This document shows, piece by piece, positions 12,249 through 62,307 of a stretch of 64,000 nt of DNA. Within the stretch, counting starts at the first letter, position 1; each line of letters begins with the position of its first letter. The stretch is from Verrucomicrobiota bacterium. GTDB lineage: Bacteria; Verrucomicrobiota; Verrucomicrobiia; Opitutales; UBA2995. The stretch is taken from contig JAQBYJ010000014.1 in assembly GCA_027622555.1 (NCBI GenBank), positions 1-64,000 on the forward strand, written 5' to 3'. The position numbers and the translations under genes were made by a program. The notes under the pieces were generated by a model. That model saw nothing but the letters and a program-made list of their open reading frames with translations, made no database searches and was not told the origin of the DNA.

Positions 12249-15200
12249 ATGACAAAACTCCTTCGTCTCGGCTTCTTTCTCCTGTTAACAAAAAGCATTG
12301 CGTGCGGCTATGTGCTTCAACCTGCCCTGAGTCCGGATGGTAAGCAGGTGGCATTCTGCTATCAGGGGGATATCTGGACCGTGTCATCAGAGGGAGGTCG
12401 TCCGTATCGACTCACGGTGCACGAAGGCTATGACTCGAATCCTCGTTGGAGTGTGGATGGGAAACGCCTGGCCTTTCAAAGTGATCGTTTTGGAAACGAC
12501 GATATTTTTTCCATGCCCAGTCAGGGTGGGGTGCCGGCGCGTCATACGCATCATTCTGCCAATGATCTTCTATCCAGTTATAGCCCGGATGGGTCCATCC
12601 TTTTTCTGACCAGACGCGTTTATGCACAAGTGGAACGGGAGTATGAAATCTATCGAGCCGATCAAGCTACGGGCACACCTCGTCGTTTCATGGATGCTCT
12701 GGGTTTTGATCCGGTGGTGTCGCCCGATGGCTCGAAGATCGCTTTCGTTCGCGGCACTTGTCGAATCGAACGGGAAGCCTACCGAGGTCCGGCCAATCGT
12801 GATATCTGGATCTATGACCTATCAAGCGAAGAGTATACTCAGTTAACGGACTTTGATGGAAATGACTTTTCGCCTAAGTGGCTGAATGACTCCACCGTGC
12901 TTTTCATTTCCTCACGCGAGGGGAAGTATAACGTGTTTCAAAACAGTCTTGGCGGATCCGTTAAACAAATTACTTTTGAGGAAGCGTTTGGGGTTAACAG
13001 TTTCGACCTGAGTGCTGCCAGGAAGACAATCGTCTATCAGCACGGAGCCGAAGTCTCCATTCAATTGATAAGCAAGAAAACAAGTACGCCTATGGAGATC
13101 GAGTTGTCGGCTGATTTCAGATTCGACCCGGTTGTTTCAGAAACGGTCAAAGACAAGATCGATGAATACGCCGTTTCGCCCAATGGAAAATTATCTGCTT
13201 ATACCATTCGCGGTGATATCTTCGTTACACGGAATGATAAGGAAGATGACCGCAGCGTGAGGATCACAAAAAGCGCCTCCCGGGAAAGGGATGTTATTTG
13301 GTTGAATGACGGGGCGATCCTTTATGTTTCGGACATGGAGGGGCAGAATGAACTCTACATCACCCAGTCCGATGACGATGAAGAAAAGGACCTGTTCAAT
13401 ACGCTCAAAACCAAAACGCTTCGACTCACGGAGACTCCTGAGGATGAGTTTCAACCCATCCTTGCTCCGAATGGAAAACAGCTTCTCTACCTGGTAGGCA
13501 ACAGCAAGCTGATTGCAGCAGACATCGATAAGGCCGGTTCGATATCCAACCCGATCACCTTGCTCGATGGCTGGGCAAGACCTGGGGGAATTAGCTGGTC
13601 ACCGGATAGTAAGTGGATCGCCTATGATTTGAGCGACCTGAATTTTAATTCAGAAGTCTTTATTCACCCCGTTAATAATTCTTCCACGCCGGTCAATGTG
13701 TCCATGCATCCAGGGGCGGATACAAACCCGGTGTGGAGTCGCGATGGAAGCAAGCTGGGGTTTGTTTCTGAGAGGAATAATGGAGATGCTGATGTGTGGT
13801 TTGCCTGGCTCAAAAAAGCAGATTGGGAGAAGTCGGACGAGCAATGGGAACGAGAGCGTAAACAAAAGGACGACAAGAAAGACGAGAAGAAGGAGCCCGA
13901 AAAGAAGAAGAGCGAGGAGCCGAAAGAAGTTTCTGAAGAATCCAAGGCAGACGAAGAGGAAGAGAAAGACGAAAAGAAAAGCGATGAGGAGGAAGAGGTT
14001 CCTGCGCTCGAGATCGATTTTGACAGAATTTATCTAAGAGTGGAACAAGTCACGGCCATGCCAGGAAACGAGGGCGAATTCGTTTTCGATAAAGACGGGG
14101 AAATGGTTTTCTTCACGATCGATAATCCCGGTAGACAAAATTATAAGACCAAACGAAACCTCTATAAAATTCGTTGGGATGGAGAGGAGCAGAAAGAGCT
14201 CATAGGAGATGATAGCTCACCAGGACAATTACATCTCTCAAAGAAGGCAGACTATATTTTCGCGCTGACCAAGGGTGGGTTACTAAGACGTATCGTCACC
14301 AAAGACGATAAGGTCGAAAAGCTGTCCGTCTCATCCAAGACGCATATAGATAGTATTGGAGAGAAGGAACAAATATACCACGACGCGTGGCGCGCTCTGG
14401 ATCGTGGATTTTATGATCCCCATTTTCATGGTCACGATTTTGAGGCCTTGAGGGACAAATACCTGCCCCTGGCTAAGGTAGCCTCCACGACGGAGGATTT
14501 TCAATACACCTTCAATCTGATGTTGGGACAATTGAACGCCAGTCACATGGGCATGCGCGGGGTTGATAACCCTAAAGACACACAGTCCCAAAAGTCAGGC
14601 CTCCTGGGCATCGAGGGTATGAATACCGAAGCAGGATTTAAAGTGACGGTGGTCGTTCCCAACAGTCCTCTGGTTAAAGCATCCAAGCCCGTTCAGGTGG
14701 ATGACATTATTGTCTCTGTGGACCGGGAGCCCGTTAATATCGAAACCAACTTTTTCTCACTATTAACCGACCAGGTGAATGACTCGGTTTTATTGGCAGT
14801 GAAGCGCGGTGATGAGACTTTTGAGAGTATCGTCTGGCCGACGGGTTCCTTGGACTCGGAGAACTACGATGCCTGGGTGGAAGACCGACGGGAGCTGGTA
14901 AATCAATACTCCAACAATCGTTTGGGTTACCTGCACATCCGCGCTATGGGCTGGGAAAGTTTCGAACGTTTTGAAACCGAATTGGTGGCAGCGGGTTACG
15001 GAAAGGAAGGCATCGTGATCGATGTGCGCTACAATGGCGGCGGTTGGACTACGGATTATCTGATGGCGGTACTGAACGTGAAACAACATTCCTACACCAT
15101 TCCCCGGGGAGCAGCCTCCAACCTCGAGCAGGAACATCTCAATTTTAAGGACAGCTATCCATTCAGTGAACGACTTCCGATGGCCTACTCAACCAAGCCA

Positions 15201-15524
15201 TCGATCGCGCTTTGCAATGAGTCCAGCTACAGCAATGCCGAAATATTTTCTCATGCTTATAAAGCACTGGGCCTTGGAACCCTGGTCGGTCAACCCACTT
15301 TTGGCGCGGTTATTTCAACTGGTAGCTATGAGTTGGTCGACGGCTCCGCTGTTCGGATGCCTGGACGTGGTTGGTTCGTAAAAGGAACCGAGACCGGTAT
15401 GGAGCATCACCCGGCCGTTCCGGATATCCTGGTAGAGAATCCTCCGGCCTACAAAGCCCGTGGCGTGGATCCGCAGGTCAAACGCGCGGTTGAGGAATTG
15501 CTGAAACAACTGGACGCAAATTAA
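12249..15524 (+). CDS. tricorn-like S41 protease, secreted
   Basis: A 1091-residue protein with an N-terminal hydrophobic signal (about 1-20), TolB/WD-like propeller repeats (LSPDGKQVAFCYQGDIW, SPDGSKIAFVRG, SPDSKWIAYDLSD) over about 20-540, a low-complexity Lys/Glu/Asp linker at about 550-600, a second propeller part, then a C-terminal core with helical domain, PDZ (about 780-860) and S41 protease. The tricorn-type nucleophile region CNESSYSNAEIF is near residue 990 and VIDVRYNGGG lies before it. Archaeal tricorn degrades peptides downstream of the proteasome; bacterial homologues with signal peptides probably work in the periplasm. The extended charged linker is unusual. Confidence 0.9.
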   Translation: MTKLLRLGFFLLLTKSIACGYVLQPALSPDGKQVAFCYQGDIWTVSSEGGRPYRLTVHEGYDSNPRWSVDGKRLAFQSDRFGNDDIFSMPSQGGVPARHTHHSANDLLSSYSPDGSILFLTRRVYAQVEREYEIYRADQATGTPRRFMDALGFDPVVSPDGSKIAFVRGTCRIEREAYRGPANRDIWIYDLSSEEYTQLTDFDGNDFSPKWLNDSTVLFISSREGKYNVFQNSLGGSVKQITFEEAFGVNSFDLSAARKTIVYQHGAEVSIQLISKKTSTPMEIELSADFRFDPVVSETVKDKIDEYAVSPNGKLSAYTIRGDIFVTRNDKEDDRSVRITKSASRERDVIWLNDGAILYVSDMEGQNELYITQSDDDEEKDLFNTLKTKTLRLTETPEDEFQPILAPNGKQLLYLVGNSKLIAADIDKAGSISNPITLLDGWARPGGISWSPDSKWIAYDLSDLNFNSEVFIHPVNNSSTPVNVSMHPGADTNPVWSRDGSKLGFVSERNNGDADVWFAWLKKADWEKSDEQWERERKQKDDKKDEKKEPEKKKSEEPKEVSEESKADEEEEKDEKKSDEEEEVPALEIDFDRIYLRVEQVTAMPGNEGEFVFDKDGEMVFFTIDNPGRQNYKTKRNLYKIRWDGEEQKELIGDDSSPGQLHLSKKADYIFALTKGGLLRRIVTKDDKVEKLSVSSKTHIDSIGEKEQIYHDAWRALDRGFYDPHFHGHDFEALRDKYLPLAKVASTTEDFQYTFNLMLGQLNASHMGMRGVDNPKDTQSQKSGLLGIEGMNTEAGFKVTVVVPNSPLVKASKPVQVDDIIVSVDREPVNIETNFFSLLTDQVNDSVLLAVKRGDETFESIVWPTGSLDSENYDAWVEDRRELVNQYSNNRLGYLHIRAMGWESFERFETELVAAGYGKEGIVIDVRYNGGGWTTDYLMAVLNVKQHSYTIPRGAASNLEQEHLNFKDSYPFSERLPMAYSTKPSIALCNESSYSNAEIFSHAYKALGLGTLVGQPTFGAVISTGSYELVDGSAVRMPGRGWFVKGTETGMEHHPAVPDILVENPPAYKARGVDPQVKRAVEELLKQLDAN

Positions 15525-15786: not shown

Positions 15787-17229
15787 TTAAGCAATCACAT
15801 CCTGCACCACTTTGCCGTGCACATCGGTCAGTCGGTAATCCCGGCCCTGGAAGCGGTAAGTGAGTCGTTCGTGGTCGAAGCCGAGGAGGTGCATGATCGT
15901 TGCCTGGAAATCGTGGATGTGGACTTTGTTTTCAGTGACAGCGAATCCGAGCTCATCGGTTGCGCCATAGGAGTAGCCACCTTTAACGCCACCACCAGCC
16001 ATCCACATGGTGAAACAATCCGGGTAGTGGTCTCGACCAAGAACGGCGGATGCAGAAGTGCGACCTTCCCGGAAGGGAGTGCGGCCAAATTCTCCGCCAC
16101 AAATAATCAGCGTCTCATTGAGCATACCTCGTTCCTTGAGGTCCTTGATCAGGGCTGCGATCGGTTTGTCTACCGTGGCGGCCTTGTCGACCAAACCTTG
16201 GCCAACTCCTGTTTCAGCCTTGGTGCCGTGAAAGTCCCAACCCCAATCGAAGAGTTGAACGAAACGTACTCCTTTTTCGACTAACCTGCGCGCGAGCAAA
16301 CAGTTGTTGGCAAAACTGGATGCGCCGGGTTCGGCCCCATAAGCCTCGATGGTCTGTTGAGACTCGGCTTTGATGTCCATAACCTCGGGGACGGACATTT
16401 GCATCCGGTAGGCGAGTTCGTATTGGGAAATGCGGGTTCGTGTTTCCGGGTGTCCGTATTCTTCGGCTTGAAGCTCGTTGATTTCGTGAATGGCATCTAG
16501 GCTGCGGCGACGAGTTTCGCGATCCATACCATTGGGGTCGGACACATAGAGTACGGGGTCGCCACTGGATCGGCATTGTACCCCCTGGTAAACCGGAGGC
16601 AGGAATCCGTTGTTAAAAGAATTTTTTCCGCCGTTGGGTTGGGAGCCGCTTGAGATGAGTACGATGAAACCCGGTAAATCGCTGTTCTCGGTTCCGAGAC
16701 CATAGGTAACCCAGGATCCAAAAGAAGGTCGCCCTGGTCGGGGAGATCCGGTCAAGGTAAACAATTCTGCCGGAGCATGGTTGAATTGATCTGTATTCAA
16801 GGAATGGATCATGCACAACTCATCGGCCACTTCTTGCAGATGCGGAATCGCGTTGGACATCCAGAGACCTCCTTTACCATATTGATTGAAAGTCTGTCTG
16901 GTCCCGAGTAACTTCGGCGTGCCTGATGTGAATGCGAATTTTTTGCCCTTTAAAAATTCTGCCGGGCAATCTTGACCGTCTCGCTTGATCAATTCCGGCT
17001 TGTAGTCATACAAGTCCAGGTTGGGTGGTGAACCGGTAAGGTGAAGGTAGATGACCTGTTTTGCCTTTGCAGGAAAGTGAGCAATTTTCGGTGCAAGAGG
17101 ATCGACCGATTTGGCAAAGGCATCGGGGCTCATGAGTGAACCTAGCGCAACGCCACCCAGTCCGGCGAAGGTCTGTTTTAAAAAATGCCGCCTGGTGGTT
17201 TGCTGGATCTGTTCGAGATAGGGATTCAT
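15787..17229 (-). CDS. DUF1501 protein (Tat-exported, sulfatase-like fold)
   Basis: A 480-residue member of DUF1501. The N-terminus has a Tat-type signal with TTRRHFLKQTF followed by a hydrophobic stretch ending SPDAFA. Motifs typical of the family are visible: VIYLHLTGSPPNLDLYDYKP, ICGGEFGRTPF, GRDHYPDCFTMWMAGGGVKGG and a C-terminal DFQATIMHLLGFDHERLTYRFQGRD. The fold is related to alkaline phosphatases and sulfatases, but the substrate is unknown. Its start overlaps the stop of the upstream PSD1 gene (ATGA), the regular pairing in Planctomycetes and Verrucomicrobia. Confidence 0.92.
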   Translation of the reverse strand: MNPYLEQIQQTTRRHFLKQTFAGLGGVALGSLMSPDAFAKSVDPLAPKIAHFPAKAKQVIYLHLTGSPPNLDLYDYKPELIKRDGQDCPAEFLKGKKFAFTSGTPKLLGTRQTFNQYGKGGLWMSNAIPHLQEVADELCMIHSLNTDQFNHAPAELFTLTGSPRPGRPSFGSWVTYGLGTENSDLPGFIVLISSGSQPNGGKNSFNNGFLPPVYQGVQCRSSGDPVLYVSDPNGMDRETRRRSLDAIHEINELQAEEYGHPETRTRISQYELAYRMQMSVPEVMDIKAESQQTIEAYGAEPGASSFANNCLLARRLVEKGVRFVQLFDWGWDFHGTKAETGVGQGLVDKAATVDKPIAALIKDLKERGMLNETLIICGGEFGRTPFREGRTSASAVLGRDHYPDCFTMWMAGGGVKGGYSYGATDELGFAVTENKVHIHDFQATIMHLLGFDHERLTYRFQGRDYRLTDVHGKVVQDVIA

Positions 17230-20200
17230 CGTTTCAAAAACATTTCATCAAGGTTCAAGAGTGCATTCCCCACTAGCGTCCATGCTGCAAATGCTGCGGC
17301 ATCGGCGTGGTCAGGTAAATCACCAATAGGATCCGTTGCCATGATTACCGCATTCTCTTGATTATTGGAGTAGTGCTGTTTGGTGGCATGAAACAGTTTG
17401 ACGAGAGCGGCTGTTTCCTTCGATGAGGGTGCCCTGACCAGACTCAGTTGAAAGCCGTGAGCTATCTTCGCTTCAACACCACCGTCGAAAGCAGCCATAC
17501 GTCGACCGAGACCTTGAGCAGCTTCGATGTAAACGGGATCATTTAACGTGACGAGAGCCTGAAGTGGAGTGTTGGTATTGGCTCGACGGATAGTGCATAT
17601 CTCGCGATTGGGGGCATCGAACGCAGTCATGGAAGGGTAGGGGTTGGACCTTCTCCAGGTGGTATAAATCCCGCGTCGATGTTTGTCCTCCCCCTCACTG
17701 GTTTTCCAGTCGGTCTTCCCTCCAAATGCGGCTGTCAGCCCCATTTCAGGCTGTAGCGGTCGAACAGATGGGCCAAACATCGTTGGGCTAAGCAGTCCAC
17801 TGACTGCGAGTGCCTGGTCGCGAATCATCTCCGCCGAGAGGCGGAATCGAGGTCCACGAGCCAGCAGTCGGTTATCCGGATCTCGGACGTAGTGTTCGGG
17901 AGTGACTTTGGACGTTTGCCGATAGGTTGCGGAGCTTACCATCAAATTCAAAAGATGTTTTATGTCCCATCCACTTTCAATCAGCTCGACTGCCAGCCAA
18001 TCCAATAACTCGGGATGAGAGGGCACTTCTCCTTGCGAGCCAAAATCTTCTGAGGTGGCGACTAGTCCAATTCCAAAAATGGCTTCCCAATAGCGGTTGG
18101 CAACGACCCGGGCTGTGAGTGGGTTGTTCTTGTCTGTCAGCCAATAGGCTAAGCTCAACCGGTTGGGTTTCTGTTCACCAGCTAATGCATGAAATGCTCC
18201 TGGGATTCCTGGGGATACTTCGGGTCCAATATCCGTATAGCTTCCACGATATTGGAGAAAGGTTTGGCGTTGGTGGCCCTTGGCCACTTCACGCATCACA
18301 GGAACTTCGGTCTCCGGTTTAATCGCCTCCAAGGCTTTTTCAATGCTCGCGATCTTTTTAAGTTCAGCCTTGGAGCCTGGGTCATGTTGGGCAAAGAATT
18401 CAAACAACTGAGCTTCCTCTTCTGCCGTTCGTTGCTTCGCTTGTGTTCTTAAAGCGGATTCCAGCTCCTGGGGAATGGCCGGCATCGGTGCATCCTCATA
18501 GCTTACGAATAACCTGAAGCGTTTTAACTTTTTGTTGGGGAAGTTTTGTCGGAAAATAAATTCCAGTTTTGCGTCCTCCGGAATGGTTAAAGGTGTTTCC
18601 AATTCGAACACGGCTTCGTTAACCGCATTCAAATTTCCATCCACCGCCCAACCGGTAAACCGGTCACTCGAATTTCCATCCAACAGGTCCTTGGCTACAT
18701 ACCATTCCTGCTCGAAGCTGGCGGTGGGATTAGTGAACTTGAGTCTTGGAACTCTCTTTTTCTTGGTCTCTGCCTCTTCCGTTTCTTCTGACTCTTCCTC
18801 CTCTCCCTCAGATTCTGTTTCCTCTTGTCCAAACTCAACCAATCGAACCTCGAACTCGTTCAGCACCCAGACTTTCTCATGCGCCTGCACTTCCAGTTTG
18901 ATTCCTGTGATCTGACCCTGTCCTTCGGGGGCTGCTGTGGTAATCGTCAGATGCTCTTGTGGTGCGGGGTTGTCAGTTACTTCAATGATTCCCTGCTCAT
19001 CGATGGTGAGTGGTGCCTTTGAGCTGGCCTTCATTTCTGTTGGAGAAGGCCGTAGGGTTTGCCAACTGCCTCCTTTAGTCAGTGCCTTTTCCCACTCGCC
19101 TCTGTGTTTATGTTGATTCTGATTCCTTAGCTTGTTCCTCAGCTCTTGTTTAAGAGTAACTAACTCAGCTTGTAGCTCCTCTCGTTCTTCGATTTGTGTG
19201 TTTGTGTAAATAGGCAAGAGAGGTCGCTCATCCTTGCGATCTTCGTCAGCCGTATTGTTAAAAATCGCGAACATGTTGAAATATTCCGTCTGCGTTATCG
19301 GATCGTATTTGTGGGTGTGGCATTGCGCGCAATCGATCGTCGTGCCCATCCAAACAGCCATGGTGGTGTTGACTCGATCCACCACTGCCTCGTTACGAAA
19401 TTCCTCATCGTCCGTGCCTCCCTCGCTGTTCGTCTTGGTATTGCGATGAAAGGCGGTGGCCACAAGTTGGTCGACACCGGGATTTGGCAACAGGTCACCA
19501 GCGATTTGTTCGATGGTAAATTGATCGAAGGGTTTGTTTTCGTTGAAGGAGCGGATGACGTAATCTCGAAATGCCCAGATGGTACGCAGCGGGTCATCCG
19601 CATATCCAGCTGAGTCAGCATAACGTGCCAGATCCAACCACATCCGCGCCCAGTGTTCTCCGTAGGCAGGCTTCTCCAATAATCGTTCCACATAGCGTTC
19701 GTAGGCGCCGTTTTTTTTGTCGGCGAGGAATGCCTCAACTTCTTCAGGAGTCGGTGGGAGGCCCGTGAGATCAAATGCCGCTCGCCGAGCCAGTGCGTTT
19801 CGATCGGCTTCGGCTGAGAGTGCCAGGTTTTCGGATACAAGTTGTTTTGCTATGAAATGATCGATTGTATTTTTTAGACCTTTTGCTTTTACTTTTGGGA
19901 CTTTTGGACGTTCCGGCTTTTTGTAGGCCCAATGGACATCGTACTTTCCTCCTTCCTCAATCCACTGCTTAAGCAAGGCAATTTTACTTTCGTCCAAAGG
20001 CTCACCCTCTTTCTTTGGAGGCATACGATCGTCCTCATCCTCCGTGGTGATTAAATAAATCAGTTCACTCTCCTCGGGCTTTCCAGGAACTACCGCCGCG
20101 TAGTCGCCCAAATCCATGCGTGAACCGTCCTGAGTGTCGAGGCGGAGCCGCCCTGTTTTTTTGGAACCTCCTTTTCGAGCCTCTTCATCCGGACCATGAC

Positions 20201-20348
20201 AGGTATAACAATTTTCAGAAAGAATCGGCCGAATATCCCTGTTGAAATCCACCTTGGCCGTCACTGGGCCATGAATAGCAAACAGCAGGCTCCCCAGCGC
20301 GGTGCAGCGGGTGAGTTTAATAATACAATTCGGGGATATCTTGATCAT
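17226..20348 (-). CDS. PSCyt1-DUF1549-DUF1553 (PSD1) cytochrome-like protein
   Basis: A 1040-residue secreted protein with an N-terminal signal, one heme-binding motif CYTCHG at about residue 48 inside the planctomycete cytochrome c region (IRPILSENCYTCHGPDEEARKGG), a DUF1549/PSCyt2 domain (about 160-370, LAFDLTGLPPTPEEVEAFL-type, CAQCH at about 330), an acidic Glu/Ser linker near 500-530, and a C-terminal DUF1553/PSD1 domain (about 700-1000, RVVANRYWEAIFGIGLV, QALVTLNDPVY). These proteins pair with DUF1501 partners and are often tied to glycan or sulfatase loci; the reaction is unknown. The pair is read away from a 220-base upstream gap. Confidence 0.92.
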   Translation of the reverse strand: MIKISPNCIIKLTRCTALGSLLFAIHGPVTAKVDFNRDIRPILSENCYTCHGPDEEARKGGSKKTGRLRLDTQDGSRMDLGDYAAVVPGKPEESELIYLITTEDEDDRMPPKKEGEPLDESKIALLKQWIEEGGKYDVHWAYKKPERPKVPKVKAKGLKNTIDHFIAKQLVSENLALSAEADRNALARRAAFDLTGLPPTPEEVEAFLADKKNGAYERYVERLLEKPAYGEHWARMWLDLARYADSAGYADDPLRTIWAFRDYVIRSFNENKPFDQFTIEQIAGDLLPNPGVDQLVATAFHRNTKTNSEGGTDDEEFRNEAVVDRVNTTMAVWMGTTIDCAQCHTHKYDPITQTEYFNMFAIFNNTADEDRKDERPLLPIYTNTQIEEREELQAELVTLKQELRNKLRNQNQHKHRGEWEKALTKGGSWQTLRPSPTEMKASSKAPLTIDEQGIIEVTDNPAPQEHLTITTAAPEGQGQITGIKLEVQAHEKVWVLNEFEVRLVEFGQEETESEGEEEESEETEEAETKKKRVPRLKFTNPTASFEQEWYVAKDLLDGNSSDRFTGWAVDGNLNAVNEAVFELETPLTIPEDAKLEFIFRQNFPNKKLKRFRLFVSYEDAPMPAIPQELESALRTQAKQRTAEEEAQLFEFFAQHDPGSKAELKKIASIEKALEAIKPETEVPVMREVAKGHQRQTFLQYRGSYTDIGPEVSPGIPGAFHALAGEQKPNRLSLAYWLTDKNNPLTARVVANRYWEAIFGIGLVATSEDFGSQGEVPSHPELLDWLAVELIESGWDIKHLLNLMVSSATYRQTSKVTPEHYVRDPDNRLLARGPRFRLSAEMIRDQALAVSGLLSPTMFGPSVRPLQPEMGLTAAFGGKTDWKTSEGEDKHRRGIYTTWRRSNPYPSMTAFDAPNREICTIRRANTNTPLQALVTLNDPVYIEAAQGLGRRMAAFDGGVEAKIAHGFQLSLVRAPSSKETAALVKLFHATKQHYSNNQENAVIMATDPIGDLPDHADAAAFAAWTLVGNALLNLDEMFLKR

Positions 20349-49960: not shown

Positions 49961-52900
49961 ATGCGCCTTAGTACACGTTTCTCTCTCTCGTTTCTTTTAA
50001 TAATAATTTTGTCTTCAGTGGTTTGGCTTCGATTCCAGCCGGTAGTGGAGCAGCAGGATTCTGCTTCAAACCAATCGGTTGAAAGCGTTGCCCGAAACAC
50101 TGATTCAACACCGGCAGCAGGCTTAGCGATCGATACTAAAGAAATCCTGGATTTTCAGTCTTGGATGTCTGAATTTCGTGGAGGTAATCGAGAGGACGGA
50201 TTCTTGCAGCAAGGGTTGCAAATCGCCGAGGCACGGCGGTCTCCCATGCTTCAATTAATTCAAACCAATAGTGCTGCCGCATTGGGAGCCGCCATAGGCT
50301 ATGCTGATTATGCTGCGCTGCCCCAAAACATTAAGGCTATGGTTGAAGAACCGTTTACTACAACGGGCGATGTTCAAGTAACTGCCATTTGTGACCATGA
50401 GGACCATACCCCTCAATATCATGTGAGTGTTTACCTCGAGGATAAAACTCGGCTTCGAATTGGAGACGAGTACGAGGCTCGTACCGGTCTCTCCAAATTG
50501 GATGTCCCCATCCAGGGAATAGAGTTGGATGGTTGGGCAGTTCTCGATTCCAAAGTATTTGATGTCGTGGACGGGGAAGATGCAGATTGGGCTCACGAAA
50601 CCTTACCCATCGGGAATCCGGATCCTGAGTTGGACTTCTTAACCGGAGAGGAGCTTGGACCAAACCCGGTTACCACGGTAGCCGGTGGATTTGTTTTCTT
50701 TTTCTCAAATGAAGAGACTTTGGCTGAGTTGGAGCAATTGGTGCATGGGTTTGATCAGTTGCCTGGAAAATATACAGGAAGTTCGGTCATCTATTCAGAG
50801 GAGGTTCAGAATGTTCAGGCAAAAGGATTTCCAATTAAACAAATTCAGGATAGTCAATTGCAACTCTCCATAAACGATACGACCGGGGATAAAACCTCGC
50901 TGTTTATCCGGGTCGTTTTCTCGGACAAACCCGATGCTCCGATCAGCAAGTCGGATTTGGAAACTCAGATTAATGGACCTGTTTCGGATGCACTTGTGAA
51001 TTACTCCTACGACCAAACGTCGATGACGGCGACCGTTACAGAGGCGATTTATGAGGTGAGCATGGTTAGTACGGAATATGCCTTCACTGGAGGTGGTGAT
51101 AGTGTCGATGAGTCGGATCTGTTCGATGAGGCTGTCGCATTATATCAGGTAGATGTACCCGGAGATCCGTATAATACTTATGATATCGTAGGGGTTGTTT
51201 TCCCAAAAATTGATGGAGTAGGCTGGGCTGGGCTGGGAACCGTCGGTGGCGCCGATTCTCGCCACTGGCTGAATGGCGTAGCCAGCTCGGAAACGATCAT
51301 CCATGAGTTTGGCCATAATTATGGACTCAGTCATTCAAACTACTGGGTATTTAACAGCACAAATACTGCCTCTACTAACCCAGTCGATACCTCTGGGGCG
51401 AATGAAGAATACGGCGACTTCTGGGATGTTATGGGTGATGGAGATTCCACACGTGGGCACTTCCATATGGCTGCGAAGCGTTATCTAAGTTGGTTGGGGG
51501 AAAGTCAGGTTGAAACCATCGACAGTGATGGGACATATGAACGCACAATTTTTCGCTTCGACCATGAGAACGCCAAGTCTGACGGATTGCAGGGCCTGGA
51601 AATCAAAAAAACCAACAACGAAAATTACTGGGTAGGTTTCCGTCGAGCTTTTGAATCGAACGCCAATTATTATCGAGGGGCATACATTTTGTGGGAGCGA
51701 CCTCCATCCGGGACTGATAGAAACCAGGGTTGGATTATTGATACAACTCCCGGGTCGGAAGGGGAACGTCAGGATGCTGGGATTTCTCTCGGTCGGACCT
51801 ATTCAGATACGACAGCTCAAGTGCACATCACCCCCATCGCGGTCGGTGGTAGTTCACCAAATGAGTATCTGGATGTCGTGGTAAATGTAGGGGCCTTCAC
51901 TGGAAATAGTGCCCCAACCGTTTCGATCACCGCGCCGGCTACTGGAGATGCGCGAGCTTCTATCGCTTTTTCTGCCACGGGTAACGACACCAATGGCGAT
52001 ACCCTTGCCTATTCCTGGGATCTCGGAAATGGAGAAGTATACGAAAGTTCCGATTCTATCAACGCGTCTTTTACGGTAGGAGGTACTTATACGGTATCAG
52101 TCACTGTAAGTGATATGAAGGGCGGAACCATGACAGCCTCTGAGCAGATTACCATTTCAGATCCATTGAACACCTGGACAGACCGAAGCTTTGGCTCTAC
52201 AAAAGATATGTTTTCTCTGGCCAAAAATGGCACTCATGTTGTGGCTGGTGGGAAGTCGACTCTACTCCGATCGACTGACGGTGAGACATGGACCAATGTG
52301 AGCCCAAGCGGTATGTTAAATGTTTCCATTAACAGTATTTGCTGGACCGGGTCCGAGTTTGTGGCCGTTGGCCAAGACTATGACTTCGATGTGAATGGAT
52401 GGCAGGGCGTGATTTACACTTCGTCGGATGGCGAGACCTGGACTCGAGATTTTGAGGCTTCAGCGTTGGCAGGAGGGGCCAGTAACGGGTTTGTAGATGT
52501 TGCCTGCAATGAAGAAGGCAGCTTGATCATTCTGGTCGGAGACCGAGACCTGGTATACAAGCAGGAAGATGGAGGCGACTGGACCGCAGTGGATCTTGGA
52601 TTGAGTGTTTCCACAAGACTGGGTATAGGATTCGGCGGAGGCGTATTTGTGGTCGGTGGGTTCGATTTCACCAATCAACTGGAAGGACTGTACCTATTCC
52701 GTACTTCCGATGGAGTTAATTGGACGGATCTGGAAGACAATAGCGATCTGAACTCGAATGCCGGGTTAGATACGATTGCCCACTTTAATGACATCTTTAT
52801 CGGGAGCGGATTCAACTCCCGAGTCGTATTTTCAGAAAATGGTGGCATCAGTTGGCAGACTTTACAGCAAGGAAACCGACACGATGTGCACGCCTTTGGA

Positions 52901-53746
52901 TTCGGAGCCGGGGTTTTTTACGCGATCGGTGAAGACGAGGACAATGCGGATGCCACGGTGAACTTGGTATCCAGCGACGGAAAGATATGGGAAGAAGTCG
53001 AGGCCGAGGCGACTGAAGAAGGAAATGCGGTCATCTTTTTCAACAACTCATTCATCATTGCTGGTGGAGGGCGTTTTAATAATGAGGATGATGGCTTTAT
53101 CAAGCAGTCCGGTCTTGTGGAGGCTGCTGATGAAGTGCTGGCTGCTCCGATTATTTCTCCTTCCTTTGGAGGATTCAGCGATTCTGTTGATGTAACGATC
53201 ACCACGGATGCCGAAGGTGCTCAGATAAGGTACACCTTGAATGGATCGGAACCGACAGCGAGTTCAACCCTCTATTCCGGTGCCATCACTATTACCGAAA
53301 CCACAACCGTAAAAGCCAAAGTCTTTAAAAGCGAACTCGACCCGAGTGTCACAGCTTCACGGACATACACCAAGGCTTTAGAGGGGTTTGCCGCCTGGAT
53401 TGATGGCTTCGAAGTAGGTGATGAAACTGTTGCCTCAGACAATCCAGACGGAGACTGGGCGAATAATTTCTTTGAGTGGGCTGTGGGCAGTCTTCCCAAT
53501 GATGGTGACTCGGTTCCTGACGCTCCTGAACTATCCTTTAACTCTTTAGGGAGAGCGGTATTTACAATCAGTCGATTTGCTAAGTCCGCCGATGTGACTT
53601 TGTCGATTGAGAAATCGACAGATATGAAGACATGGGATCCGTTGCCAACCACCCCCACCACGGATAGCGCAACCATGTTGGTCCTGGTTTCGGATTCGGC
53701 TATCAACACCTTCCCCTGTTTCCTGAGAATTAGGGCGAAAGATTAA
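49961..53746 (+). CDS. large secreted zinc metalloprotease, multidomain
   Basis: A 1261-residue secreted protein. The N-terminal signal anchor (about 7-23) is followed by a metalloprotease domain with the zinc site HEFGHNYGLSH at 448-458 and MGDGDSTRGHFHMAAKRYLSW after it (gluzincin/metzincin-like, M12/M11-type). A PKD domain follows (about 645-735, SWDLGNGEVYESSDSINASFTV), then BNR/YCF48-like repeats (about 740-1040, RSTDGETWTNVS, TSSDGETWTRD, FSENGGISWQTL), a chitobiase C-terminal-like domain (about 1060-1135, TDAEGAQIRYTLNGSEPTAS) and a C-terminal domain ending FLRIRAKD. It is probably surface-attached or secreted and degrades proteins or peptidoglycan-linked polymers. Domain borders are approximate. 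Confidence 0.82.
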   Translation: MRLSTRFSLSFLLIIILSSVVWLRFQPVVEQQDSASNQSVESVARNTDSTPAAGLAIDTKEILDFQSWMSEFRGGNREDGFLQQGLQIAEARRSPMLQLIQTNSAAALGAAIGYADYAALPQNIKAMVEEPFTTTGDVQVTAICDHEDHTPQYHVSVYLEDKTRLRIGDEYEARTGLSKLDVPIQGIELDGWAVLDSKVFDVVDGEDADWAHETLPIGNPDPELDFLTGEELGPNPVTTVAGGFVFFFSNEETLAELEQLVHGFDQLPGKYTGSSVIYSEEVQNVQAKGFPIKQIQDSQLQLSINDTTGDKTSLFIRVVFSDKPDAPISKSDLETQINGPVSDALVNYSYDQTSMTATVTEAIYEVSMVSTEYAFTGGGDSVDESDLFDEAVALYQVDVPGDPYNTYDIVGVVFPKIDGVGWAGLGTVGGADSRHWLNGVASSETIIHEFGHNYGLSHSNYWVFNSTNTASTNPVDTSGANEEYGDFWDVMGDGDSTRGHFHMAAKRYLSWLGESQVETIDSDGTYERTIFRFDHENAKSDGLQGLEIKKTNNENYWVGFRRAFESNANYYRGAYILWERPPSGTDRNQGWIIDTTPGSEGERQDAGISLGRTYSDTTAQVHITPIAVGGSSPNEYLDVVVNVGAFTGNSAPTVSITAPATGDARASIAFSATGNDTNGDTLAYSWDLGNGEVYESSDSINASFTVGGTYTVSVTVSDMKGGTMTASEQITISDPLNTWTDRSFGSTKDMFSLAKNGTHVVAGGKSTLLRSTDGETWTNVSPSGMLNVSINSICWTGSEFVAVGQDYDFDVNGWQGVIYTSSDGETWTRDFEASALAGGASNGFVDVACNEEGSLIILVGDRDLVYKQEDGGDWTAVDLGLSVSTRLGIGFGGGVFVVGGFDFTNQLEGLYLFRTSDGVNWTDLEDNSDLNSNAGLDTIAHFNDIFIGSGFNSRVVFSENGGISWQTLQQGNRHDVHAFGFGAGVFYAIGEDEDNADATVNLVSSDGKIWEEVEAEATEEGNAVIFFNNSFIIAGGGRFNNEDDGFIKQSGLVEAADEVLAAPIISPSFGGFSDSVDVTITTDAEGAQIRYTLNGSEPTASSTLYSGAITITETTTVKAKVFKSELDPSVTASRTYTKALEGFAAWIDGFEVGDETVASDNPDGDWANNFFEWAVGSLPNDGDSVPDAPELSFNSLGRAVFTISRFAKSADVTLSIEKSTDMKTWDPLPTTPTTDSATMLVLVSDSAINTFPCFLRIRAKD

Positions 53747-53847: not shown

Positions 53848-56706
53848 TTATGGACCTGTTATAGTGAATGTACCATTGACCGTATTTCGAGCTGTAGGAA
53901 AGAAGACGGCGACTGTTCCAGAAGTAGCTGTGTTGTACTTTAGGAATATTTGCTGATCGAGGAGGAAGTCGTTCGTAGTGATTACCTGGTCAATCCCACC
54001 GCCGATATTTTCAAACCACTGATAATCCGTTACCAAACCATTAGTTGGCGTGGCATTGTCCGGAAAGAAACGTGAATACGTTCCTGTGCGACTCGTGAGA
54101 AAAGTAAACTCTTCTTTGTCAATTAAAGAATTTCCATTGGCTAGCTCCAAATCGATAATCAACTTTACGCCTGTCTTGTTTACAGATTCACGTGGTGGGC
54201 TTGCTGTTCCGATTTGGAAGGAAACCGTGCTAACGTTACCGCTATCAAGAAAGAGTACTTCAGCCATTCCTGTTGTTTTTCCCGTGCCCGTATACGTAAG
54301 AATGACCTGTATGGGTGAGATGTTTGAGAAGCTGAAAGCCATTAGGTCTGTTCCGTCCGGTCTTTCGAACCAATTGTAGAGATTTAATACTCCTGTTGGT
54401 TTGGCGATAGAGCTTGCCTGTGTAGAACTGTAAACACCTGAAAGGTTATCAAAAATATCTATGGTAAGCGTATCAATGGTCTGGCCCCCAAGTGCTAAGA
54501 CCAATTGCGTTCCGGTTTTATCAACTGTTTCAAGCCTTGGATTCCCTCCCCCTACAATGTATTCATAAGTGGCATCTCCGACAGCGCCTGCGAATGGAAA
54601 ATGAACTTTCGCCGTTCCCATGGAAGAGGCGCCATTGGGTTGAGGTGTCAGATATACCTGCATTGGGGGTATCCCATTGTCATCGTATACAATATCCACC
54701 CGAGTTTCATCTGTTGTTTTTATCCAGGCATATTCAACTATGTTGCCAAATTGATTAACATCTGAATCCGTTCTAGTTGTTTCGTAACCTCCTTCGAAAT
54801 TGTCGTAGAAGTCTATATTGATCGTAGATTGAACTATGGTGGACAGATCCGGATTCGATACATCCAATACCAGGATGAGCTTATCGCCTTCTTTATCTAA
54901 AGCCGGAGGCTTTGGTTCACCAGGCTCGATTTTAAATGTACCGTCCTGGAATTGACGATTGTTTAGAAAGAATACTTTAGCGTTTCCAGTGGTTTCGCCC
55001 TCCAGCAAAACTTGTATATCCGCAATTTGATCAAAATCCAGAGTAACGTAAGTTTGCCCGTTAACAACCTGCCACCTGTACAGGACCCCGCCCGTTTGAA
55101 TAAATTCAGTATTATTACGACTGAGTCTGTAGTTTCCTTCATGTAATCTGCTAAGGGTTTGATCAGTTGAATCAAAAAGTCCGAATAAATCGATTCTGTA
55201 GGTTGAAATAACCGACTCTTGGCTAGTATTGGTTGGGACAAATGTTGTGATTATTGTTAACCTCGTTAGATCTTTATTTTCTCTTACGGGCTCTGGTTGG
55301 CCATCTTCGAATGAAAAGGTGCCAGTCGCTGTGAAACCTTCAGGTCTGCCCGTTGGATAGTAAAAGTATGCCGACCCTGAGCTTGTTGTTTCGTAGGACA
55401 GGTAGGCTTGAACAGGCGAGAATATGTCTGAGGTTATAAACGCTTGATCTCGGTCCATTTCCCCGGGGCCGAGATCGAAGTTCTGGTAGCCGAACACAGT
55501 TCCGAATGGTTTCATGTTGGCTTGATCTGAGCGGGTAAATTGCACCCCTCCGGTCAATTCATCGTAGAAATCGACAGTGAGTTGTTCAGGAAGGAAGGTG
55601 ATAAATAATTGTTCGTTCTCCGTAAGCTCTTTAGGATCAAAATTCAAAATGAGTCTTTTGCCACTTAGGGATGGAGTTGCAGGGAACACTGTCTCCAGCA
55701 TTCTGTAGAAATGACGTCTGTCAGATGAAATATCCGAGGATGGAAATCTCTGTATGTAGGTTGGTTCCTCGCCTACCTCCAAGTTATCGTTGTCCGGACT
55801 AAATCCTCGATCAAAGAAGTCCGTCTTTCTCCAGGACTCCAGGTCGTTACTATCTTCCAATAAGTATTGGCTATTTCTATTGCGCAGCCAAACGGCCTTC
55901 AAAACACGAGTTTTGGGTGTATCGGGATTGGAATCCGTATCTTCTAAATTATTTGAAAGAGTTGGATGCGGAGAACGAAAAGTTGGCTGAGGCCAATACT
56001 TTGAAGGATCCCAATTGTTGGCTACTGCACCTTCACGGATGATTTTCACTGATTGAATGGTCGCTGTCCAGGCTTCAATGGGGAAGCTGCCTGATGATGG
56101 CGCTCGCGCAATTCTCTGCGCGACAAGTTGTCCTTCTACTATCTGACCAAAAATTGAGTGGTTTCCATTTAAATTATCCAGACGTGGTTGCCCTTCTGGA
56201 AACTGAGCCATAGTTATAAAAAACTGGCTTCCACCGGAATTTCGATTGATTGCACCATTTGCAGAATTGGCCATGGAAACGACTCCGCCCCCGGTATGAT
56301 TGAGTACCGGGGAAACTTCGTCTGGAATTTGCCATCCAGGGCCATCGCTTCCCGAACCGTTTCTTGAACCGGTTTGAATCACAAAATTCGGTACGATTCG
56401 GTGAAAAATCAAACCATCAAAGTAGGGTTCCGGGTTATCTGGACCTCCGCGAATCGTTTGGGTTTCAAAATCGTACCATTTGATCTTTCCCTCCGCTAGC
56501 CCGATAAAGTTGGCTGAAGTGACTGGCGCCTCGGCAAAAAAGAACTGAAAAACAATCTCTTCAGTCACCTGAGCTTGTTCACCTGGGTCAGGATCTCGGT
56601 ATGTTACTTCAATAACTCCGTAGATACCTTCACTACTAGGAGTGAATGCCGATAGTTGAAAGGCGGTGCTAATGAGGAAACAGACACAAGAAATAAAACG
56701 CTTCAT
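53848..56706 (-). CDS. secreted cyclophilin-type peptidyl-prolyl isomerase with five novel repeats
   Basis: A 952-residue secreted protein. The signal peptide (about 1-20) is followed by a cyclophilin domain at about 28-235: VTSANFIGLAEG, YFDGLIFHRIVPNFVIQTG, GGVVSMANSANGAINRNSGGSQFFIT and FGQIVEGQLV match the active-site blocks. A linker (about 240-340) has a QYLLEDSNDLESW segment. From about 345 to the end come five copies of a roughly 120-residue repeat (K-x-G-x-x-LxLxL..., Y.W..., PxQxxLxY..., G-x-AxVxFP, G-x-FxI) that I cannot assign. Repeats look beta-rich and may bind polymers or form a stalk. It is convergent with the large metalloprotease gene. Confidence 0.85.
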   Translation of the reverse strand: MKRFISCVCFLISTAFQLSAFTPSSEGIYGVIEVTYRDPDPGEQAQVTEEIVFQFFFAEAPVTSANFIGLAEGKIKWYDFETQTIRGGPDNPEPYFDGLIFHRIVPNFVIQTGSRNGSGSDGPGWQIPDEVSPVLNHTGGGVVSMANSANGAINRNSGGSQFFITMAQFPEGQPRLDNLNGNHSIFGQIVEGQLVAQRIARAPSSGSFPIEAWTATIQSVKIIREGAVANNWDPSKYWPQPTFRSPHPTLSNNLEDTDSNPDTPKTRVLKAVWLRNRNSQYLLEDSNDLESWRKTDFFDRGFSPDNDNLEVGEEPTYIQRFPSSDISSDRRHFYRMLETVFPATPSLSGKRLILNFDPKELTENEQLFITFLPEQLTVDFYDELTGGVQFTRSDQANMKPFGTVFGYQNFDLGPGEMDRDQAFITSDIFSPVQAYLSYETTSSGSAYFYYPTGRPEGFTATGTFSFEDGQPEPVRENKDLTRLTIITTFVPTNTSQESVISTYRIDLFGLFDSTDQTLSRLHEGNYRLSRNNTEFIQTGGVLYRWQVVNGQTYVTLDFDQIADIQVLLEGETTGNAKVFFLNNRQFQDGTFKIEPGEPKPPALDKEGDKLILVLDVSNPDLSTIVQSTINIDFYDNFEGGYETTRTDSDVNQFGNIVEYAWIKTTDETRVDIVYDDNGIPPMQVYLTPQPNGASSMGTAKVHFPFAGAVGDATYEYIVGGGNPRLETVDKTGTQLVLALGGQTIDTLTIDIFDNLSGVYSSTQASSIAKPTGVLNLYNWFERPDGTDLMAFSFSNISPIQVILTYTGTGKTTGMAEVLFLDSGNVSTVSFQIGTASPPRESVNKTGVKLIIDLELANGNSLIDKEEFTFLTSRTGTYSRFFPDNATPTNGLVTDYQWFENIGGGIDQVITTNDFLLDQQIFLKYNTATSGTVAVFFPTARNTVNGTFTITGP

Positions 56707-59866: not shown

Positions 59867-60571
59867 ATGATCGAAGCTTACGTTGAACGAGCCTCCACCT
59901 ACGCAGGAGATATCGATAACCTTTTTTCGATGGTCTTTTGGATCGTCGCCCTTTGGTTTGTTGCCGCAGAAGTCGTGTTGTTTTATTTTTGTTTCCGCTA
60001 TCGAAAAGTGGATGGGGTCGCTACCCAATACATCACAGGAGAGAAAAAATATCACAAGAAGTGGATTTCAATTCCGCATTACCTGGTTTTGTTTTTTGAT
60101 GTTTTTATCGTAGCGGGTGCCATTGCGGTTTGGTACGATGTTAAACAGAGATTACCCGAGCCGGATTTAGTGGTCGGAGTTATTGCACAGCAGTGGGCGT
60201 GGACCTTCATTCATCCTGGAGCGGACGGCGTGCTTCATACCAATGATGATATAACTACTATCGACGAACTCCATATCATGGAGAATGTCACTTACCATGT
60301 TGAGATGGAGTCTAAGGATGTATTGCATTCTTTCTCCGTTCCGGTTTTCCGGCTTAAACAGGATGTTATTCCAGGTCGGAAAATTACGGGCTGGTTCAAG
60401 GCCACCAAAACGGGTGAGTGGGATATTCAGTGCACGGAAATTTGTGGTATCGGCCATGGCTTGATGCCTGCCCGCATTCATATCAAATCCGCCTACGACC
60501 ATAAACAATGGGTGGAGCAAAATAGCCCGAATGGTTCGGGTCAAGCTCTCGCATCGATCTCCCAACCCTGA
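59867..60571 (+). CDS. coxB: cytochrome c oxidase subunit II
   Basis: A 234-residue CoxB with two membrane helices (about 24-48 and 70-92) and a periplasmic cupredoxin domain. The CuA ligands are complete: His in KDVLHSFSVP, then CTEICGIGHGLM (Cys, Glu, Cys, His, Met). QQWAWTF is the usual entry-site motif. There is no fused cytochrome c; the separate diheme protein upstream is the likely donor. Confidence 0.95.
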   Translation: MIEAYVERASTYAGDIDNLFSMVFWIVALWFVAAEVVLFYFCFRYRKVDGVATQYITGEKKYHKKWISIPHYLVLFFDVFIVAGAIAVWYDVKQRLPEPDLVVGVIAQQWAWTFIHPGADGVLHTNDDITTIDELHIMENVTYHVEMESKDVLHSFSVPVFRLKQDVIPGRKITGWFKATKTGEWDIQCTEICGIGHGLMPARIHIKSAYDHKQWVEQNSPNGSGQALASISQP

Positions 60572-60597
60572 ATCTTTGACCGTTTCTTTTTTATAAC

Positions 60598-62307
60598 ATG
60601 TCTCACGCGCACGAAATGAGTTTCTCGGAAAAGTATATCTTTTCCACTGACCACAAAGTAATTGGACTCCAATATATGTTTACAGGGATCTTTATGGCCC
60701 TGATTGGAGGATTCTTTGTTTATGTTTTCCGCATGCAGCTGGCATTCCCGGGTATTGAAGTTCCCTTTTATGGAACGGTAACACCGCTTGCCTACAATTC
60801 CCTGGTTACCAATCACGGAACCATTATGATTTTCTGGTTCGCGATGCCTGTCTTAATTGCGGCATTTGGAAATATTCTGATTCCGCTGATGATTGGTTGC
60901 GATGATATGGTATTCCCCAGGATCAATCGCCTATCCTACCAGATTTTCCTGCTGAGTGCGATAGTCCTGATCGCTTCATTCTTCGTGCCTAATGGTGGTT
61001 TTGGTGGAGCCTGGACAGCTTATCCGCCTTTATCAGCCAATGCAGCCTATAACGCGACTCCATTAGGAGCCCCGATGTGGTTGATTGCGGTCGCTCTGGA
61101 ATTCGTCGCGTTTCTTCTTGGTGGTATTAACTTTATCACAACCCTGATGAATGCCCGTGCACCGGGAATGACGATGTACCGAATTCCAATGGCTTGTTGG
61201 ATGATTGTCATCGCGAGTATCCTTTTCATGTGTTCTGTGGGCCCCCTGATTGCAGGAGCCGTAATGCTTCTTTTCGACCAAACACTGGGAACACATTTCT
61301 TTGACGCCGCTGGTGGTGGGGATCCTTTACTCTGGCAGCATTTATTCTGGTTCTTCGGTCATCCTGAAGTATATGTGGTACTTCTTCCCGCCATGGGATT
61401 TGTTGCAGATATCATGGCCGTAATGGCTCGGAAAAAGCTCTTTGGTTACAAAACCATTCTCTATTCGGTTTTCGCTACTGGTATTCTTAGTTTTGTCGTT
61501 TGGGCTCACCACCAATTCATTGCCGGCATAGATCCTCGCATGGCTAACTTGTTTACCGTGACGACTCTTCTGATTTCAGTTCCCATTGCGGAGCTGTGCT
61601 TTGTTTACATCGCCACCTTATATGGAGGATCCATTACCTTCAATACGCCTATGCTTTGGGCACTTTCCTTTATGGTAGAATTCCTTATTGGAGGTGTAAC
61701 CGGAATCTTCCTGGGTGCGAGTGGGGCGGATATTTATTTCCATGATACTTATTTTGTGGTGGCCCACTTTCATTATACTTTCGTGCCGATTGCTATTATT
61801 GGCTTCTACTGCGGAATCACTTTCTGGTTCCCCAAGATTTTCGGAAAAATGATGAATGATACTTTAGGTAAGATTCATTTCTGGGGAACGATCATTCCAT
61901 TCAATTTCATTTTCATTCCACTCTTCTTGTTAGGGGCCGCCGGCCAACACCGCCGTATTTACAACTTTGAACATTTTCAGGACCTGGCTCTACCAGAGTT
62001 TTTCAATCTTCGGGTAATCGCCACGGTTTCCCTGATTGTGATGATCGCTTTCCAGTTAGTTTTTGTGGTCAACTTTATCCTTACCCTTCGTAATGGAAAG
62101 AAGGCTCCGAAGAATCCATGGAATTCCAATACCTTGGAGTGGACAGCAGAGTCTCCACCCCCTCACGGCAATTGGCCGGTACTGCCTTCTGTTTATCGTG
62201 GTCCTTACGAGTATGGTCACCCTGATCGTCTTAATTCCGATTTTTGGCCGCAAGATGAACCAGGCCCTGATCCGGCCGATCCTGATTACAAATCCACCCA
62301 AGCATAA
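60598..62307 (+). CDS. coxA: cytochrome c oxidase subunit I
   Basis: A 569-residue heme-copper oxidase subunit I with about 12 membrane helices. Heme a ligand region NHGTIMIFWFAMP, the cross-linked His-Tyr and K-pathway region WFFGHPEVYVVLLPAMG (A1-type Glu present), the CuB histidines WAHHQFIAGIDPRM, and the heme a/a3 histidines DTYFVVAHFHYTF are all visible. It reduces O2 to water while pumping protons. Second large gene of the cox operon. Confidence 0.97.
   Translation: MSHAHEMSFSEKYIFSTDHKVIGLQYMFTGIFMALIGGFFVYVFRMQLAFPGIEVPFYGTVTPLAYNSLVTNHGTIMIFWFAMPVLIAAFGNILIPLMIGCDDMVFPRINRLSYQIFLLSAIVLIASFFVPNGGFGGAWTAYPPLSANAAYNATPLGAPMWLIAVALEFVAFLLGGINFITTLMNARAPGMTMYRIPMACWMIVIASILFMCSVGPLIAGAVMLLFDQTLGTHFFDAAGGGDPLLWQHLFWFFGHPEVYVVLLPAMGFVADIMAVMARKKLFGYKTILYSVFATGILSFVVWAHHQFIAGIDPRMANLFTVTTLLISVPIAELCFVYIATLYGGSITFNTPMLWALSFMVEFLIGGVTGIFLGASGADIYFHDTYFVVAHFHYTFVPIAIIGFYCGITFWFPKIFGKMMNDTLGKIHFWGTIIPFNFIFIPLFLLGAAGQHRRIYNFEHFQDLALPEFFNLRVIATVSLIVMIAFQLVFVVNFILTLRNGKKAPKNPWNSNTLEWTAESPPPHGNWPVLPSVYRGPYEYGHPDRLNSDFWPQDEPGPDPADPDYKSTQA

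Follow-up and report, generated by a model that had tools for sequence, protein, structure and literature searches.

The window, a stretch of 64,000 nucleotides of Verrucomicrobiota DNA, contains a gene for a 952-residue protein that is made up of an apparent export signal, a cyclophilin domain, a linker module and five tandem barrel repeats (Table 1), and this architecture is well supported. The repeats, named R1 to R5, are 131, 127, 126, 115 and 111 residues long and together occupy residues 343-952. The N-terminus is hydrophobic and its Ala20 is the same in all five proteins aligned there, so that the cyclophilin is apparently exported, as judged from the signal read in its first residues. 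Both cysteines of the protein, Cys7 and Cys9, lie inside the putative signal peptide, which leaves a mature chain with 0 Cys and an acidic pI of 4.43. By eye, neither an anchor or sorting motif at the C-terminus nor a membrane anchor at either end of the protein was seen. Promoter- and terminator-like sites were not more numerous than in shuffled sequence.

Table 1. The barrel-bearing cyclophilin gene of the window and the parts of its product
Feature	Coordinates	Strand	Basis
Whole gene, 952 aa	53848..56706	(-)	Open ORF, ATG start; orthologues with conserved gene order
Putative signal peptide, residues 1-20	56647..56706	(-)	Judged from the sequence, with Ala20 identical in all five aligned proteins
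Cyclophilin domain, Pfam match residues 49-211 (fold ~25-233)	56074..56562	(-)	PF00160
Linker module with 'S-DL--W ... FYR', residues 225-342; several strands predicted	55681..56034	(-)	Without Pfam match
Barrel repeat R1, residues 343-473	55288..55680	(-)	Repeat HMM, full-length model
Barrel repeat R2, residues 474-600	54907..55287	(-)	Repeat HMM, full-length model
Barrel repeat R3, residues 601-726	54529..54906	(-)	Repeat HMM; modelled alone, pLDDT 91.2
Barrel repeat R4, residues 727-841	54184..54528	(-)	Repeat HMM, full-length model
Barrel repeat R5, residues 842-952	53851..54183	(-)	Repeat HMM, full-length model

The cyclophilin domain is matched by PF00160 with an E-value of 6e-30 and 105 bits, against a curated cut-off of 21.7. 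In the alignment, the catalytic equivalents R103, F108, Q111, F163 and H183 are all present, together with A146, and we take them to correspond to R55, F60, Q63, F113, H126 and A101, respectively, of human CypA. The core motifs align with those of Mycobacterium tuberculosis PpiA (1w74) and others, with an insertion preceding the conserved histidine. From the catalytic residues that are kept, we infer that the 952-residue protein is a cyclophilin-family prolyl isomerase; with the Pfam match and the apparent export signal, the original prediction of a secreted cyclophilin fused to repeats is supported. The cyclophilin fold and the catalytic residues are common to exported bacterial cyclophilins of the PF00160 family, such as the PpiA proteins of M. 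tuberculosis and Lactococcus lactis, but the 1w74 chain has 191 residues, whereas in the protein of the window the cyclophilin is followed by a linker module and five barrels. For the surface-exposed L. lactis cyclophilin, a published study reports PPIase and chaperone activity in vitro and little phenotype (PMC3307742).

Conservation of the active site extends to most relatives. The equivalents of R55, F60, Q63 and F113 are complete in 41 of 46 aligned proteins, a set made of the 952-residue protein, five orthologues and 40 single-barrel relatives; sub-threshold domain rows and duplicates of the same protein from several loci were removed before this count and the count of 31 single-copy proteins given below. 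The catalytic arginine is missing in two of the 46. One is encoded in Verrucomicrobiae bacterium DG1235 (L044), where two tandem barrel-bearing cyclophilin genes (6001-7296 and 7292-8575) overlap by a few bases and FHA replaces FHR in the second, whose catalytic arginine is gone. The other, a 424-residue ORF (L182), matches PF00160 at 3.4e-13; it is a divergent cyclophilin whose active site is degraded but whose barrel is still recognisable, possibly a pseudoenzyme. In these two barrel-bearing relatives, therefore, the barrels can outlive catalytic residues.

Between the cyclophilin domain and the first repeat lies a separate module of about 118 residues ('SNDLESW ... RHFYRM') that had been missed at first, so the repeats are C-terminal to the cyclophilin, as had been described, but do not directly adjoin it. 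The module was found, by reading or by profile, in all 46 proteins of the family alignment, and may represent a separate domain family. A cyclophilin of 315 residues (L045) has the linker module without a barrel. The linker-module profile takes in some of the cyclophilin tail in several rows, and its list of proteins with the module and no barrel was kept out of the counts. The C-terminal part of the metallopeptidase encoded next door was considered as a relative of the module, but no link was found: the profile matched no other protein of the window at E≤10.

The five repeats are mutually related. When each is scored with a profile hidden Markov model of the other four, R1 to R5 obtain 47.1, 40.3, 59.8, 58.9 and 48.8 bits, while the best of 2000 shuffles per repeat reaches at most 12.9 bits, which rules out a chance pattern and upholds the claim that the five belong to one family; all ten repeat pairs have Smith-Waterman z-scores between 5.7 and 18.4. 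The motifs originally quoted as consistent throughout are roughly right but not literally present in all five copies: Y-x-W occurs in 4 of 5 (R1 has YQN instead), P-x-Q in 3 of 5, although every copy has its Q and, three positions later, the L, and the terminal F-x-I in 3 of 5.

The original prediction also held that the repeat matches no known family and named a clear hit to a known domain family as what would overturn it; the corresponding searches left the claim standing, because the repeats drew no match in Pfam or NCBIfam, either as single repeats or, for Pfam, with 25 members of the family. Searched with the whole protein, NCBIfam gives cyclophilin matches and nothing else, and neither the barrel nor the linker module is matched by any Pfam-A model. 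Profiles of Ig-like and PKD adhesin domains gave no significant match, the sole row being Ig_7 at E 0.11 in one of the 25 members, and Pfam profiles of lipocalins and calycins gave 0 matches with single repeats or with the 25 members. The sole PDB sequence-profile match to the repeat, 9ny2, has an E-value of 0.88 and is taken as chance.

An AlphaFold2 model of R3, made with 15 other sequences taken from the window and from named loci, has eight strands, a pLDDT of 91.2 and a pTM of 0.85, and nearly every strand shows alternating hydrophobic residues; the single-repeat modelling that had been suggested thus leads to a predicted small beta-barrel of a known kind. The full-length model, made with 8 sequences, has a mean pLDDT of 74.4 and a similar series of strands in all five repeats, and much of its cyclophilin part is of low confidence, presumably because few sequences were aligned. 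A fold search with the full-length model gave a list filled with cyclophilins and was uninformative on the other parts. Compared with the PDB by Foldseek, R3 finds fatty-acid-binding proteins and lipocalins, with a best E-value of 8.6e-3 and none at E≤0.001; among viral structures no fold match was obtained at E≤0.001, and one MoaF-like viral protein appeared at E 0.24. On realignment the best match is to Burkholderia cenocepacia MoaF (4q51), in its C-terminal half, with Z 10.2 and 2.7 Å over 102 residues at 5% identity. Unrelated barrels come next, namely haemoglobin linker chains (Z 8.9, 8.8 and 8.5) and, at 8.0, a designed barrel; the remaining matches have Z below 8. Values of Z below 8 may reflect merely a common arrangement, and the 10.2 for MoaF is slightly above that range. 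From the models, we conclude that the repeat is predicted to be a small calycin-like beta-barrel, with MoaF as its nearest known shape and without demonstrated kinship.

MoaF is the nearest solved shape to one repeat, yet sequence comparison does not place the repeat in MoaF or in MoaF_like (PF22036): 0 of the 25 members match MoaF models at E≤1, and PF22036 has no match in the window's own genome. Comparison by hhalign with two single sequences of MoaF_like regions gave probabilities of at most 0.9, a weak test in which one sequence was below the family cut-off. The repeats resemble lipocalins and fatty-acid-binding proteins, the calycins, in their predicted small antiparallel beta-barrel and have weak Foldseek matches to them, but they have no profile match to them and form tandem arrays on a cyclophilin.

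When the window's own genome (6.0 Mb in 238 contigs) is searched with a profile made from R1 to R5, these five copies alone are found; a second cyclophilin, on contig C66, has a single barrel that was detected with a broader profile and missed by the five-repeat one. Among same-genus orthologues, two (L013 and L014) have five copies each at full length, and a third (L012) has two whole copies and part of another before its contig ends, while the proteins of the sister genus (L015 and L016) have three copies each. Two other genomes of the genus, G002 and G005, yielded other cyclophilins only and no match to the barrel domain; these are fragmented assemblies of 850 and 370 contigs respectively, and G002 is 75% complete.

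The repeat is not peculiar to one protein: the same domain is found once at the C-terminus of many Verrucomicrobiota cyclophilins, and several comparisons support the view that the repeat is an amplified form of it. Single-copy, secreted-looking cyclophilins of the order carry about 105-140 C-terminal residues behind a linker module of similar kind. The profile made from 11 of these single domains, cut by hand, aligns with the array-repeat profile (23 copies) over 99 columns with a score of 73.6 and a probability of 97.8, against 9.2 for a reversed control and 20.3 for the best of 60 column shuffles. The repeats-only profile matches the ends of L071 (1.2e-7), L042 (4.1e-6) and L050 (2.5e-4), and the single-domain profile matches the L041 array at E 1.3e-8; L041 and G003 are very probably one genome and were counted once. 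With the profiles combined, the barrel domain is found in at least 21 of 273 genomes of the order, at least 16 of 387 in the phylum sample and at least 18 of 335 in the class sample, sets that overlap, were drawn from larger groups and are not pooled, and in many of whose genomes only part of the first-look candidates was scored.

A survey for the repeat apart from cyclophilins, as first proposed, turned up almost exclusively cyclophilins: by motif or Pfam, 38 of the 39 distinct single-copy proteins found (31 and 8 in two sets) belong to that family. The exception is a 247-residue ORF (L156), a weak candidate (E 6e-4 in the phylum sample and 3.4e-4 in the class sample) with no Pfam match for the residues submitted. 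Cyclophilins and similar barrel folds are already known; what is new is a barrel and a linker module that lack a Pfam-A model, and these look like two domain families absent from the libraries searched. No description of barrel-tailed Verrucomicrobiota cyclophilins was found in full-text literature, a corpus that mostly leaves out subscription journals, and, to our knowledge, extracytoplasmic protein folding in Verrucomicrobiota has been little studied. Cyclophilins with one, three or five barrels, together with barrel-less ones, form a natural series on how accessory domains alter a prolyl isomerase.

The history of the array can be read from a maximum-likelihood tree of 47 domains, comprising 23 array copies and 24 single domains. 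All the array copies fall on one side of one branch, with a support of 96/90; R1, R2 and R3 group with the first, second and third copy of the sister genus, respectively, and R4 and R5 are seen solely in the genus of the window. Because the array forms one clade with position-specific subclades, the tree indicates that it is an old tandem amplification of a single barrel, and the position-wise grouping across genera therefore points to an array of at least three copies in the common ancestor of both genera. R4 and R5 were either gained in the window's genus or lost in its sister. The single-copy rows nearest to the array come from Verrucomicrobiae bacterium DG1235 (S_A6_15) and Pelagicoccus (S_A6_16); Pelagicoccus and Cerasicoccus are single-barrel relatives that are in culture. 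In pairwise identity with the copies of L013 and L014, 8 of 10 rows have their best match at the same position; the pairing of the sister genus's second copy with R2 is invisible from identity alone.

That the barrel occurs almost only together with a PPIase domain suggests that it serves this enzyme. The explanation that we place first, and hold tentatively, is that of an exported prolyl isomerase whose five tandem-duplicated barrels hold or dock client proteins, a function that we infer for the barrels. The cyclophilin would work outside the cytoplasm, in the periplasm or beyond, as a folding catalyst, a role that the original prediction had raised and that is plausible because the active site appears intact. 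The barrels would hold or dock clients close to the isomerase site, like the separate binding domains of other PPIases, and more barrels would provide more contacts or a longer reach. In SlyD-type PPIases, a binding domain likewise lies beside a prolyl isomerase domain, an analogy and not a membership, given that SlyD is an FKBP-type enzyme with an inserted domain, whereas the protein of the window is a cyclophilin with C-terminal barrels; a published study reports that chaperone domains inserted in FKBP12 greatly raise its folding activity (PMC11013033). It is conceivable, though rather doubtful, that the barrel is a cyclophilin-specific chaperone or substrate-binding module of Verrucomicrobiota whose copy number (1, 3 or 5) tunes the length or size of the client.

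Conservation within the barrel bears on what kind of function can be expected. The conserved positions are mainly glycines and residues of the hydrophobic core, and a single glutamine, Q83 in the model numbering, is conserved as well (18 of 25); for this reason no enzyme-like polar cluster is apparent, and neither a conserved surface patch nor conserved polar pocket residues were found. Without a conserved surface patch, one shared binding site is not favoured. The same pattern, together with a copy number that varies (1, 3 or 5) behind a constant linker module, agrees with a purely structural role, in which the barrels would be spacers, stalks or oligomerisation units that set the distance between the enzyme and a membrane or partner and would bind no substrate. 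This role, the foremost of the rivals, is itself somewhat unlikely, since the single barrel is the common state and one small barrel would make a poor stalk, and the protein shows no membrane anchor to the eye.

Next in order, and improbable, is a lipocalin-like role, in which the barrels would be pockets for a glycan or for a ligand that is small or lipophilic, and the cyclophilin would fold or regulate either the barrels or some associated protein. The resemblance in shape to fatty-acid-binding proteins, lipocalins and MoaF is what recommends such pockets, but the Foldseek matches stay above E 0.001, no conserved polar residues stand out for a pocket and a fold alone shows no function. The remaining rival, adhesion, depends partly on the genes nearby and ranks last.

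Gene order around the locus is largely kept within the window's genus. The sister genus has the same outer flanks but lacks the sulfatase, metallopeptidase and LysM-amidase neighbours, and the neighbourhood is therefore not a fixed unit. Adhesive modules are usually common to many surface proteins. That the repeats bind cells or polysaccharides, with the cyclophilin as a passenger or presenter, is very unlikely. In its favour, the protein is apparently exported, repetitive and acidic, a metallopeptidase-like gene adjoins it here and in the same-genus relatives G001 and G003, and a sulfatase gene is a further neighbour in the window and in G003. This part of the original prediction nevertheless found no direct support, as no anchor was seen and no adhesin-type or Ig-like domain matched significantly, the sulfatase and metallopeptidase do not accompany the gene in the sister genus, and the domain occurs on cyclophilins only, bar one weak match.

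The convergent neighbour (49961-53746, plus strand) encodes an apparently exported protein of 1261 residues with a zinc-metallopeptidase-like HEFGHNYGLSH motif, a Peptidase_M11 match of 21.1 bits (cut-off 21), and PKD and CHB_HEX_C_1 domains. On the other side, cytochrome oxidase genes COX2 and COX1 (59867-62307, plus strand) lie next to the cyclophilin locus in an order that the two genera share. Farther away, the window encodes a Tricorn-like protease with a PD40 propeller, Tricorn_C1, PDZ and Peptidase_S41 (12249-15524, plus strand), and a PSCyt1-PSCyt2-PSD1 protein, a Planctomycete-type cytochrome with DUF1549/DUF1553 (17226-20348, minus strand).
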